Shown here: in pieces, positions 17,705 to 34,603 of the stretch
How positions within the stretch are numbered: position 1 is the first letter of the stretch
Layout of the letters: the number at the start of each line of letters is the position of its first letter
Origin: Thauera sp. GDN1
GTDB taxonomy: Bacteria; Pseudomonadota; Gammaproteobacteria; Burkholderiales; Rhodocyclaceae
Assembly (NCBI RefSeq): GCF_029223545.1
Contig: NZ_CP097870.1
Span: forward strand, 1,178,001 to 1,242,000
Direction of reading: 5' to 3'
DNA length: 64,000 nucleotides
Translations under genes and position numbers: made by a program
The notes under the pieces: model-generated
Seen by the model: the letters and a program-made list of their open reading frames with translations, nothing else
The model's database searches: none
What the model was told of the DNA's origin: nothing

Positions 17705-19756
17705 TCATGCGCCGGTTCCGGTCGTCGCCAGCAGCGCGCGGGCACGTTCGACCACCGCCTGCGGCGTGAACCCGAAGCGCTCGAGCAGCGCCGCCGCCGG
17801 GGCGGATTCGCCGAAGCGGTCGATGCCGACCACGTCGCCGCGCCCGCCCGCCAGGTAGCGCCACCAGCCATGCGGCTGGGCCGCCTCGATCACCAGCCGC
17901 GGCACGCCCGGTGGCAGTACGCGCTGGCGGTAGGCGGCATCCTGGCGGTCGAAGACCGAGGTGCAGGGCATGGACACCACGTGCACGGCGACGCCCTCGG
18001 CTGCGAGCGTGTCGTGCGCGGCCATCGCCAGCGCGACCTCCGAGCCGGTGGCGATGATCACCAGCGCGGGCCCCCCAGCATCCGGCGGGGCCTCGGCCAG
18101 CACGTAGCCGCCGCGGGCGATGGCCTGCACCTGGTCGGCCTCGCGCTGCTGGTGCGGCAGGTTCTGGCGCGACAGCGCGAGCAGCGTCGGGCCGTCGCGG
18201 CGCATCACCGCGGCGTTCCACGCGGCCTGGGTCTCGACCGCATCGCAGGGGCGCCACAGGTCCAGGCCGGGAATCAGGCGCAGGCTGGGGATGTGCTCGA
18301 CCGGCTGGTGGGTGGGGCCGTCCTCGCCGAGACCGATCGAGTCGTGGGTCATCACGTACGCCACGCGCTGCTTCATCAGCGCGCTCATGCGGATCGCGTT
18401 GCGGGCGTAGTCGGAGAACACCAGGAAGGTGGCGCCGAAGGGGATGAAGCCGCCGTGCAGCGCGATGCCGTTGAGCGCGGCAGCCATGCCGAACTCGCGC
18501 ACGCCCCAGTTGATGTGGCGGCCGGGCTGGTCGGCGCGCACCGCGCCGCAGGCGGGCCAGTCGGTGAGGTTGGAGTGGGTGAGGTCGGCCGAGCCGCCGA
18601 GCAGTTCGGGCAGCGCGCGTGCCAGGCGGCCGATGGCCTGCTGGCTGGCCTTGCGGCTGGCGACGGTGGCGGCCTCCTTGGCGACGCCGCGCAGGATGGC
18701 GTTCGACAGGATGCCGAAACCGACCGGCAGCTCGCCGGCCATGCGGCGGCGGAACTCCTCGGCCGCTTCGGGGAAGCCCTGCGCATAGGCCTCGAAGCGG
18801 GCCTGCCATTGCGCGCGCTGCTCGGCGCCGCGGGCGCGGGCGTCGAAGGCGCTGCGGATCTCGTCCGGGATCTCGAAGCGGGCGTGCGGCCAGCCGAGCG
18901 CCGCGCGCGTCGCGGCGATCTCCTCGGCACCGAGCGGGGCGCCATGCACGTCCGCGCTGCCGGCGCGCCCGGGGCTGCCGCGGCCGATGGTGGTGCGGCA
19001 GCAGATCAGCGTGGGGCCGATGTCGTTGTCGGCGTTGGCCTGCGCTTCGCGGATCGCGCGGTCGACCGCCTCGACGTCGTGGCCGTCGACCGCCTCGATG
19101 ACGTTCCAGCCATAGGCGCGGAAGCGTGCAGCGGTGTCGTCGGCGAACCAGCCTGCGACGTCGCCGTCGATCGAGATGCGGTTGTCGTCCCAGAAGCAGA
19201 TGAGTTTGGACAGGCGCTGCACACCGGCGAAGCTCGCGGCCTCGTGGCTGACGCCTTCCATCAGGCAGCCGTCACCGAGGAAGACCCAGGTGCGGTGATC
19301 GACGATGGGGTGGCCGGGGCGGTTGAACTCGGCGGCGAGCAGCTTCTCGGCCAGCGCCATGCCCACGGCGTTGGTGAGGCCCTGGCCGAGCGGGCCGGTG
19401 GTGGTCTCGACCCCGGGGGTGTGGCCGACCTCGGGGTGGCCGGGGGTGCGGCTGTCGAGCTGGCGGAAGCGCTCGAGCTCATCGAGCGGCAGCTCGTAGC
19501 CGCTGAGGTGGAGCAGGGCGTAGAGCAGCATGGAGCCGTGACCGTTGGAGAGCACGAAGCGGTCGCGGTCGGCCCACCCGGGGTTCGTCGGGTCGTGCTT
19601 CAGATGCCGCGTCCACAGCGCCACGGCGATCTCGGCCATACCCATCGGCATGCCGGGATGGCCGGACCTGGCCGCCTCGACGGCGTCGATGGCGAGAAAG
19701 CGCAGCGCGTTGGCGCACAGGGTGTCGATCGGCGCCTGGGTGAGTCGCATGTTCAT
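17705..19756 (-). CDS. cbbT: Transketolase, Calvin operon copy
   Basis: Thiamine-diphosphate enzyme of the regenerative phase of the Calvin cycle. The 683-residue product shows [18 protein letters not shown], the TPP motif [13 protein letters not shown] and the pyrimidine-domain segment [20 protein letters not shown] 19756 follows GGAGA by 8 nt. A 407-nt gap with three stem-loops separates it from prk upstream. A paralog lies at 31564-33579. Confidence 0.95.
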
Positions 19757-19814
19757 CGGAACGTCTCCAATCACAAATGAAACTGCTTATGGCCGTCGGC
19801 CAGTCGCCACGGCC

Positions 19815-19912
19815 AGCGTGGCGTATGGGGCGTTTCTGGAGCAGCCGAGGACTGTCCGAGCCCGCAGGGCGAGTTCCGCAGGCTGCGGAAGAAATGCCCC
19901 GTGCGACGCGCT
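19815..19912. repeat. Stem-loop element A: conserved 52-nt core inside self-complementary arms
   Basis: The arms 19815-19837 and 19890-19912 pair over 23 positions with one mismatch and a few G-T wobbles. They enclose a 52-nt core (19838-19889) containing GAGGACTGTCCGAGCCCG, a GCCC-GCA-GGGC mini-hairpin and a TCCGC/GCGGA mini-hairpin. The core recurs inverted in element C (47/52 identical) while the arms are unrelated. It lies in the gap between prk and tkt of the Calvin operon. No open reading frame with family similarity was seen in 19757-20163. Confidence 0.8.
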
Positions 19913-19920
19913 TTCCTGGA

Positions 19921-19973
19921 ACCGCCGGTGGTGCTGGGACGGTTGCAACAACCGTTGCTTGACCACCGCCGGT
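19921..19973. repeat. Stem-loop element B between A and C
   Basis: ACCGCCGGTGGT (19921-19932) pairs perfectly with ACCACCGCCGGT (19962-19973). Inside is a second hairpin, ACGGTTG (19939-19945) with CAACCGT (19949-19955) and a CAA loop. It has no sequence similarity to the A/C core. Confidence 0.75.
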
Positions 19974-19991
19974 CTCCGTAACCCGCGGCCT

Positions 19992-20075
19992 AGCAGGCGG
20001 TGTTCCTTCCGCTGGCTGCGGAACTCGCCCTTCGGGCTCGGACAGTCCTCGCCTGCTTCAGGAACACCGCCTGCT
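19992..20075. repeat. Stem-loop element C: inverted copy of the 52-nt core with different arms
   Basis: The arms 19992-20007 and 20060-20075 are a perfect 16-bp inverted repeat (AGCAGGCGGTGTTCCT). They enclose a 52-nt core (20008-20059) that is the reverse complement of the element A core with five substitutions. Two of those changes (G/C and T/A near the TCCGC/GCGGA hairpin) fall in its loop. Confidence 0.8.
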
Positions 20076-20163
20076 CTCCGCTGGACGTGGGTGGTGCACG
20101 GCGGCCGTGAAAGACCTTTCTGCTGCCGGACGTTGCTGGGGCGCAGCGGCAGGCGTTTCGTTC

Positions 20164-21045
20164 TCATTGCGCCAGCGCCTTGCGGCGGCGGTCCATCAGG
20201 CGCCAGATGAAGGGGGTGAAGATCAGTTGCATCGCCAGCTCCATCTTCCCGCCCGGCACCACGATGGTGTTGGCGCGGCTCATGAAGCTGTCGTTGATCA
20301 TGTTGAGCAGGTAGGGAAAGTCGATGCCCTTCGGATTGGCGAAGCGGATCACCACCATCGACTCGTCGGCGGTCGGGATCGAGCGCGCGATGAAGGGGTT
20401 GGAAGTGTCCACCATCGGCACGCGCTGGAAGTTCACATGGGTGCGCGCGAACTGCGGGCAGATGTAATGCACGTAGTCGTGCATGCGGCGCAGGATGGTG
20501 TCGGTCACCGCCTCGGTGGAATAGCCGCGGGTGTTCTTGTCGCGGTGCAGCTTCTGGATCCACTCCAGGTTCACCACCGGCACCACGCCGATCAGCAGGT
20601 CCACGAAGCGCGCCACGTCGATGTTCTCGTGCTGCACGGCGCCGTGCAGGCCCTCGTAGAACAGCAGGTCGGTGCCGGTCGGCAGCTCCTCCCAGGGCGT
20701 GAAGGTGCCGGGCTCCTGGCCGAAATGCTCGGCCTCCTCGAGGCTGTGCAGGTACTTGCGGCGCTTGCCGCTGCCGGATTCACCATAGCTGCGGAACAGG
20801 TTCTCGAGTTCGCCGAACAGGTTGGCCTCGGGACCGAAGTGACTGAGCTGGCAGCCGCCGCCGACCTCGCAGGCGGCGAGCTTCTCGCGCATGGTCTTGC
20901 GGTCGTGGGCGTGGAAGCTGTCGCCCTCGATGACCGCGGCGGTGACGCTCTCGCGGCGGAAGATCTCCTCGAAGGTGCGCTGCACGGTGCTGGTGCCGGC
21001 ACCGGACGAGCCGGTGATGGCGACGATCGGATGACGTTCGGACAT
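20164..21045 (-). CDS. cbbP: Phosphoribulokinase (class I), Calvin operon copy
   Basis: ATP-dependent phosphorylation of ribulose-5-phosphate to the RuBisCO substrate. The 293-residue product has the P-loop GSSGAGTST (12-20), [15 protein letters not shown] and the class I signature [15 protein letters not shown]. It differs from the second copy (33728-34603) around residues 58-65 (ACEVGGGCQLSHFG against [12 protein letters not shown]). fbp lies 18 nt upstream; the stem-loop cassette follows downstream. Confidence 0.96.
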   Translation of the reverse strand: MSERHPIVAITGSSGAGTSTVQRTFEEIFRRESVTAAVIEGDSFHAHDRKTMREKLAACEVGGGCQLSHFGPEANLFGELENLFRSYGESGSGKRRKYLHSLEEAEHFGQEPGTFTPWEELPTGTDLLFYEGLHGAVQHENIDVARFVDLLIGVVPVVNLEWIQKLHRDKNTRGYSTEAVTDTILRRMHDYVHYICPQFARTHVNFQRVPMVDTSNPFIARSIPTADESMVVIRFANPKGIDFPYLLNMINDSFMSRANTIVVPGGKMELAMQLIFTPFIWRLMDRRRKALAQ

Positions 21046-33727: not shown

Positions 33728-34603
33728 TCAGACCCACTGCCGGCGGCGTTCCATCAGTTTCCAGATCAGCGGCGTCAGGATCAGCTGCATCGCCAGGTCG
33801 AGCTTGCCGCCCGGGATCACGATGGTGTTGGCGCGGCTCATGAAGGCGTCGTGGATCATGCGCAGCAGGTAGGGGAAATCCACGCCGCGCGGATCCTTGA
33901 AGCGGATCACCACCATGGATTCGTCCTGCGTCGGCACGTCGCGCGCGATGAAGGGGTTCGAGGTGTCGACCACCGGTACGCGCTGGAAGTTGATGTGGGT
34001 GCACGCGAACTGCGGGACGATGTAATGAACGTAGTCGTGCATGCGGCGCAGGATGGTGTCCTGGACGGCCTCGGCGGTGTAGCCGCGCAGCTTGGTGTCG
34101 CGGTGCAGCTTCTGGATCCACTCCAGGTTGATGATCGGCACCACGCCGATCAGCAGGTCCACATGGCGGGCGATGTTGACGCTCTCGGTCACCAGCGCGC
34201 CGTGCAGGCCCTCGTAGAACAGGCAGTCGGTGCCGACCGGCAGGTCTTCCCATTCGGTGAAGGTGCCCATCGGCAGGTTCCAGCGCATGGCCTGGGCTTC
34301 GTTGTGGATGTAGTAGCGGCGGCGGCCGGTGGCGGCCTCGCCATAGGCGCGGAACAGGCTCTCGAGCTCGGGCAGCAGGTTGGCCTCGGGACCGAAGTGG
34401 CTGATGCCGCGCTTGCCTGCGTTCTCCGCGTCCTCGATCAGCGTCTTCATCTCGGTGCGGGTGTAGCGGTGGAAGCTGTCGCCCTCGACGATCGCGGCGT
34501 TGACGTTCTCGCGGTGGAAGATGGCTTCGAAGGTGTGCTTGACCGTCGTGGTGCCCGCGCCGGACGAGCCGGTGACCGCGATGATCGGGTGCTTCATGGA
34601 CAT
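33728..34603 (-). CDS. prk: Phosphoribulokinase, second copy
   Basis: The 291-residue class I phosphoribulokinase ([20 protein letters not shown]) has [34 protein letters not shown] and a C-terminus close to the first copy. It heads the second carbon module. GGAG lies before ATG 34603, and a GCGTAT/ATACGC inverted repeat lies just upstream. RuBisCO itself is not duplicated, so both kinases must feed the single enzyme. Confidence 0.95.

Follow-up and report, generated by a model that had tools for sequence, protein, structure and literature searches.

The spacer between prk and tkt in the Calvin operon of Thauera sp. GDN1 contains two hairpins with a common core, one inverted relative to the other, which raises the question of what kind of element these hairpins represent. 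The original prediction, made from the letters of the window (the whole stretch of 64,000 nucleotides that was analysed), had offered a structured RNA, a protein-bound hairpin, or a non-autonomous element that inserts into palindromes. That interpretation is partly supported by the findings described here.

Inverted hairpins A and C between prk and tkt

Hairpin A occupies positions 19816-19911 of the window on the plus strand, with its 5' arm at 19816-19845, its core at 19846-19881 and its 3' arm at 19882-19911, and hairpin C, including an outer GCGG/CCGC helix, occupies 19985-20083 on the minus strand, with its core at 20016-20051. The upstream gene, prk (phosphoribulokinase; 20164-21045, minus strand; NF011997, 505.2 bits), and the downstream gene, tkt (transketolase; 17705-19774, minus strand; TIGR00232, 904.7 bits), have the same sense as the core of C, and the core of A is antisense to the operon. 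The core of A consists of CGAGGACTGTCCGAG, an apical mini-hairpin with the loop C-GCA-G, and CGAGTTCCGCAG; the apical loop of C is C-GAA-G. The inverted, shared core was borne out by the sequence itself, by a repeat search of the window, in which A and C form a 119-nucleotide inverted repeat with 76% identity (and the arms of C a 25-nucleotide inverted repeat with 84%), and by a covariance model built from 30 copies, all taken from other records. In particular, this model matched A at 19827-19901 (53 bits, E 9e-15) and C at 19996-20070 (49.9 bits, E 8.8e-14), and found nothing else of significance in the window (next best E 0.19). A and C are inverted copies of one hairpin. The 17-mer GAGGACTGTCCGAGCCC also occurs exactly twice in the window, a count that is weak evidence when taken alone because two or more matches arose in 13 of 100 shuffles at up to three mismatches.

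The arms of A and C had been thought unrelated in sequence yet self-complementary. They do pair with themselves, and those of C covary among orthologues, but they are not wholly unrelated; both fit GG(T/C)GTTYCTGRAG / CGGAAGRAAYRCC, and their differences are compensated. A third hairpin, B, is present as expected in the spacer, where the 3' sides of A and C flank it (about 19922-19972, no strand assigned), but is weaker and, in orthologues compared by eye, poorly conserved. (Note that the window holds a second prk copy at 33741-34016, 80% identical over 276 nt; a scan with the model found no hairpin at five genus loci of such second copies.)

A conserved core on stems of free sequence

The layout of the core is CGAGGACTGTYYGAG-[mini-hairpin]-CGAGTTYCGCAG. 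Invariance of 25 of its letters holds by construction, since the search pattern fixed them; the C that precedes each core half lies outside the pattern, yet is invariant in all 30 of 30 hand-chosen copies. Genomes of many bacterial phyla have this core, on arms that are unrelated in sequence and pair with each other. Across named genomes the gapped core pattern matched at least 120 stretches, including some from Beta- and Gammaproteobacteria, Nitrospira, Myxococcota, Spirochaetes, Lachnospiraceae, Eggerthellaceae, Coriobacteriia, Barnesiella, Gastranaerophilales, Omnitrophota, Endomicrobium and several Patescibacteria, among which single taxon records may be misplaced because most are metagenome bins. 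A 14-mer of the core occurs at 1-135 copies per genome in 20 genomes, and its reversed control once in total. Within the genus a 17-mer from the core is present in 26 of 29 genomes, with a maximum of 55 copies, and a Thauera sp. record (L110) carries near-identical hairpins. The string GAGGACTGTCYGAGC has 8 copies in the genome of strain GDN1, and 18 of the 121 family genomes contain it, although at least one such match (L034) sits in no hairpin. The core pattern was found in a single stretch among viral contigs; no phage record matched the window cassette, plasmid records matched neither that cassette nor L121, and L168 matched plasmids, among the matches listed, through nif genes only. The hairpin has no Rfam match above the gathering score. 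The core strings were absent from the bacterial-repeat literature, and reports of such hairpin-ended cassettes were likewise absent, among the matches listed from a mostly open-access body of papers.

The structural reading had been made subject in advance to a check that could overturn it, namely a wider search for the core and a covariation test of the arms. Other genomes carry the core on variable arms and the arms covary, which supports both selection on structure and a non-autonomous element. In the 133 of 145 copies that have full flanks, the two arms of one copy pair with a mean score of 12.8, versus 6.1 for arms taken from different copies, and the own-arm score lies above the 95th percentile of the cross pairs in 102 of the 133. 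In an alignment of ten orthologues of C, pairing holds for 97.1% of cells, and both sides have changed in 9 of 35 pairs; the covariation score exceeds that of 500 of 500 shuffles and of every slid control, the number of pairs with a double change was matched by 2 of 500 shuffles, and the number of further pair types by 51 of 500. For the 30 cross-phylum copies the covariation score was 0.317, versus 0.081 when shuffled (reached by 0 of 500 shuffles), and the three pairs adjacent to the core each occur as four or five pair types; the double-change pair count and the pair-type count of these 30 copies were not above those of the shuffles.

The apical loops are those of a particular strand. GNA loops were found in 78 of 133 copies, 75 of them CGAAG, CGCAG or CGTAG (that is, C-GNA-G), against two reverse complements of GNA, one GNRA, one GNRA reverse complement and no UNCG; the remaining 51 comprise 17 other triloops, 14 other tetraloops and 20 longer loops. 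Perfect 4-bp hairpins in the 3' flanks likewise had a GNA loop 41 times, versus five times for a TNC loop. C-GNA-G triloops are exceptionally stable in single-stranded DNA, and the loops and this stability together point to single-stranded DNA, and to one strand of it, such that a folded DNA single strand may be the active form.

Hairpin pairs and cargo cassettes

When two cores lie within 4 kb of each other, they are usually inverted with their 5' sides inward (31 of 35 adjacent cases). The same order was found, in hand counts, for 15 of 15 pairs within 2.3 kb in ten Gallionellaceae-like genomes, for 7 of 7 pairs within 300 bp in one Parcubacterium, and for 30 of 34 pairs within 600 bp in the genus, among the matches listed. 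The closest 5'-inward pairs have a spacing of about 200 bp. Many copies are solo, however, and 5'-inward pairs account for 62 of 157 cores in loci from genome contigs and viral records; one Nitrospirales chromosome (G144) has 15 copies and no close pair. The pair A/C has the 3'-inward order, as do 4 of the 35 neighbour cases and 3 of the 34 genus pairs among the matches listed. (One 866-bp pair, L170, contains no ORF of 60 aa, and two genomes of the family have a putative short-chain dehydrogenase gene between 5'-inward hairpins with a spacing of 0.95-0.98 kb, at L076 and L079.)

Units at unrelated sites of the genus align through hairpin, spacer and hairpin over 341-384 nt at 70-79% identity, and their flanks are unalike. 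The arms are therefore part of the element, and the suggestion of an element that inserts into palindromes is not supported. At one site, G126 has a 476-nt stretch with a pair where G000 has 24 nt; the border is not clean. No target-site duplication was seen among the 23 cassettes that were read.

The cassettes came largely from ten genomes chosen through loci with such ends, nine of them titled Gallionella, Sideroxydans, Sideroxyarcus, Ferrigenium, Gallionellales or Gallionellaceae and one Proteobacteria. Forty stretches of these Gallionellaceae-like genomes, which come from iron-oxidising relatives, comprised 16 with a pair enclosing ORFs, 4 with a pair about 200-340 bp apart, and 20 with one full core, to 2 of which the model adds a weak 5'-inward partner. 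The 16 pairs with ORFs and 8 earlier loci give 23 distinct cargo cassettes (L345 repeats L202 and was counted once), with 0.66-2.3 kb between cores and one or two genes each. In 23 of 23 the cargo is poorer in GC than the fetched surroundings, with a mean difference of 15 points. Cargo was found only in the Gallionellaceae-like genomes and on a viral contig (L206). Of 8 cassettes compared end to end, 7 have ends that align with each other (85-98% over 85-211 nt); those of the viral cassette do not align. The inner border, TCCCCTGTGCGCCGCCGAG, is conserved and sharp in 36 end sequences, and by eye the end module reaches some 45 nt beyond the core on the inner side and some 155 nt on the outer side. 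Mean end likeness was 0.81 within a cassette, 0.82 within a genome, 0.80 at the same site and 0.79 for neither; because these groupings are about equal, the ends give no indication of recent movement. (Two further repeats, one like CCCTTCGACAAGCTCAGGGCGAACGG and one like GTTGGGTTACGC...CTAACCCAACCTAC, adjoin the outer edges of L306, L309, L310 and L176 by eye.)

Some cargo genes may serve in phage defence. Matches of the cargo proteins include AbiLi/AbiLii with AAA_21/RloB (L306), PDC-S33 with RelA_SpoT (L138), PDC-S31 with DUF2971 (L206), PDC-S67 (L116), a KilA-N protein resembling BstA (L202), Mrr_N (L311) and DUF4238 (L314). Enrichment of defence by count was rejected, since PADLOC matches at E<1e-10 were found for 6 of 27 cargo proteins versus 5 of 20 flanking host proteins (Fisher p 1.0). 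The host matches (three MutY and two to mad2) were all below 100 bits; above 100 bits, a limit chosen afterwards, 4 of the 27 cargo proteins had a match, as against none of the 20 from the host (p 0.13). The defence label is a lead rather than a result. Separately, the two-gene cassette at L125:272-1160 encodes one 8xMP protein (PF24838, E 1.2e-11) and a second protein that was unmatched.

At six conserved sites the cargo differs from one Gallionellaceae-like genome to another. The mutY site has five unrelated cargoes in five genomes (L202/L345, L307, L311, L313 and L329), and two cargoes each are found at lnt (L138, L315), acuI/yhdH (L306, L312), plsY (L176, L309), mltA (L308, L314; mltA was below the model cut-off) and rlpA (L116, L318); a sucB site was excluded because both of its loci come from one genome (G175). 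Among 26 cargo ORFs of at least 120 aa, no relatedness was detected at E 1e-4 save for the repeated L202/L345, in a comparison that left out the ORFs of L309 (94 aa) and L332 (113 aa). At the nucleotide level the comparison covered mutY. There, similarity on the left spans the flank and the end module and ends 47-101 nt past the left core, and on the right it returns at a point between about 140 nt before and 25 nt after the right core.

We think it rather probable that A and C are end hairpins of a family of non-autonomous mobile elements that is acted on in trans. A complete unit would consist of two inverted hairpins with their 5' sides inward, either about 200 bp apart and empty or enclosing one or two cargo genes, and solo ends would be common remains of such units. 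Each hairpin would act as a folded single strand of DNA with a fixed bulged core, a GNA triloop and a stem that can vary freely in sequence provided that pairing is kept, and a dedicated enzyme, presumably supplied in trans, would recognise it and move the unit or exchange the content between two ends. Excision and insertion of units as such would be the work of this putative enzyme. A mechanism tied to the lagging strand would predict a replication-strand bias, and counts of solo copies, assigned by hand, were not consistent in this respect (25 of 37 in G121, p 0.047; 7 of 15 in G144). Besides this, the proposal has against it that no enzyme was recognised among the families searched, that no target-site duplication was seen, that so many copies are solo, that the ends give no sign of recent movement, that cargo is confined to the Gallionellaceae-like genomes and L206, and that A and C have the non-canonical order.

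A bolder form of this proposal, which we regard as tentative, is that the hairpins mark a previously undescribed cassette system that crosses phyla. In this form, paired hairpins with an invariant core would serve as dispersed docking sites at which a trans-acting enzyme, possibly of the Xer type, inserts, removes or swaps one or two genes, partly for anti-phage defence, on a folded single strand, and the 3'-inward order of A, B and C would be a product of that reaction resembling the junction of a circle. If so, a repeat that looks like intergenic noise would mark a system for exchanging cassettes, with kin in different phyla, and the core would provide a handle on small cargo genes, some of them for defence, that annotation leaves as orphans. 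It would also raise the question of which enzyme reads a bulged core that stays fixed while the sequence of its stem is free.

Alternative explanations and known systems

Cargo could also be swapped with no dedicated enzyme at all, if the sites were fixed docking sites at which homologous recombination after DNA uptake replaces the content, with the hairpins serving as passive homology blocks or terminators. The homology at mutY, which runs through flank and end on both sides of different cargo, fits such an explanation, as does the finding that none of three enzyme families tested (see below) tracks the copies. However, it leaves unexplained the units at unrelated sites, the core that recurs across phyla on free but pairing stems, and the empty form of 200 bp that recurs. 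Recombination of homologous ends could account for the swaps of cargo, but not for dispersal. We consider this explanation doubtful.

Less credible still is that A and C exist for the sake of the prk-tkt transcript, as a structured RNA (an attenuator, or a determinant of processing or stability) or as a long A-C duplex that is cut by RNase III. The pair does have co-directional genes on its two sides, C shows covariation within its genus, and minimum-energy folding of the RNA predicts that A pairs with C as one large hairpin, as the original prediction had suggested. Moreover, 45 of 68 settings of the hairpin are co-directional, 18 convergent and 5 divergent, counts for which no expectation was computed. 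Against an RNA, the 45 co-directional settings (by crude ORF calls) have the core in sense 18 times and in antisense 27 times, the loops are of the DNA type, Rfam provides no match, and the gene context is not constant. Furthermore, a model scan of 17 prk loci of the genus found both hairpins in 8, one in 4 and none in 5 (a different gene follows prk in two of these five), and partial deletions are visible in the prk-tkt hairpin sequences. Loss on repeated occasions suggests that any role in the RNA of this operon is dispensable; such a role is possible, as a candidate only. The pair in the window, which encloses no cargo and has the less common 3'-inward order, is old within its genus, and several species have lost it in part or wholly. 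(Scars of deletion or insertion can be read in the prk-tkt hairpins of L243, L244 and L251, and in L243 the arm of C is fused to A.)

If the hairpins are ends acted on in trans, as we favour, the enzyme is not encoded beside them in any constant way. A linked transposase or tyrosine recombinase, which the original prediction had looked to, was searched for near copies and in cargo and not found; none of 27 cargo proteins belongs to a transposase or recombinase family, and among 1032 ORFs at 121 loci no protein was constantly linked in cis, the largest shared groups being the repeat's own frames (30 loci) and ABC-transporter ATPases (11 loci), with at most 4 loci for the rest. The integron integrase model TIGR02249 was over its cut-off in 14 of 36 genomes, including G048, which is free of copies, and not in G123, G170, G177, G179, G180, G181 or G149, and reverse transcriptase was found in 18 of 36 genomes and was missing from copy-rich ones; both were rejected as movers because their presence does not track copies. 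Tyrosine-recombinase-like matches, mostly below the integron cut-off, were found in 36 of 36 genomes, so that a host enzyme of the Xer type could still serve.

The Y1 transposase PF01797 was present in 16 of 31 genomes with copies and in 9 of 15 without, and was not found in G121 (55 copies, the maximum of the genus) or G123 (27 copies); drafts may miss genes, but G026 and G086 are single contigs. No hairpin lay within the fetched flanks of 42 of 44 Y1 loci, including the two of the GDN1 genome; the exceptions, L074 (G126) and L225 (G103), both belong to the genus. At L074, two same-strand hairpin copies lie beside a 299-aa Y1_Tnp protein and a frame read as IS66-like. In the GDN1 genome, RAYT-like Y1 genes at 1548852 and 1878670 (L082 and L083) lie amid a different repeat (with frames ERRQPRS) and without the hairpin. 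That the hairpins are REP or BIME elements mobilised by a RAYT (TnpA-REP, a Y1 transposase) is therefore improbable, and RAYT was rejected as the mover, despite the presence of hairpins near two Y1 loci and of GTAG at the 5' foot of some ends in the genus, because Y1 is no commoner where there are copies, is absent from G121 and G123 and is hairpin-free at 42 of 44 loci, and GTAG occurs in the 60-nt 5' flank at the level of chance (27 of 133, versus 24.9 shuffled).

The likeness to REP, BIME and REPIN elements is nevertheless considerable, since these, too, are short intergenic palindromes that form inverted dimers, have many copies and are non-autonomous, according to PMC3733652. GTAG and CGTC REPs are elements of 20-40 bp tagged at the foot, and Thauera sp. 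MZ1T has GTAG-1 repeats, which are unlike the present hairpin (same paper). In contrast to REPs with their conserved foot tag, the hairpin family has a bulged core conserved at the apex, free stems, no dependence on Y1 and forms that bear cargo. TIRtrons (TIRYT) have long, sometimes self-complementary terminal repeats, are moderately abundant and flank a tyrosine transposase gene, as described in PMC3733652. The repeats of the hairpin cassettes are similar, but no such gene was found between their ends.

Mobile insertion cassettes (MICs) have terminal inverted repeats and passenger genes and no transposase. The hairpin cassettes share with MITEs and MICs the terminal inverted repeats with no transposase between them, and no parental insertion sequence or autonomous element was found among the 23 cassettes read; unlike in MICs and MITEs, the ends are long modules of several hairpins. 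In the attC cassettes of integrons, the cassettes are small and the sites are folded, free in sequence and kept in structure. The hairpin cassettes are likewise small, with folded sites of free sequence, but have two inverted ends per cassette and dispersed single sites; paired R boxes of attC (RYYYAAC/GTTRRRY) occurred within 60 nt in 0 of 133 copies (0.11 shuffled). Finally, in the dif (pdif) modules of Acinetobacter, cargo lies between 28-bp recombination sites, the recombinase is encoded elsewhere and content is shuffled. The best match of copies to E. coli dif averaged 12.9 of 28 (maximum 18), versus 12.8 (maximum 16) for shuffled sequence. The hairpin cassettes resemble these modules in having cargo between sites, shuffled content and a recombinase that would likewise be encoded elsewhere, and differ from them in being chromosomal, in spanning many phyla, and in having long hairpins in place of 28-bp sites.
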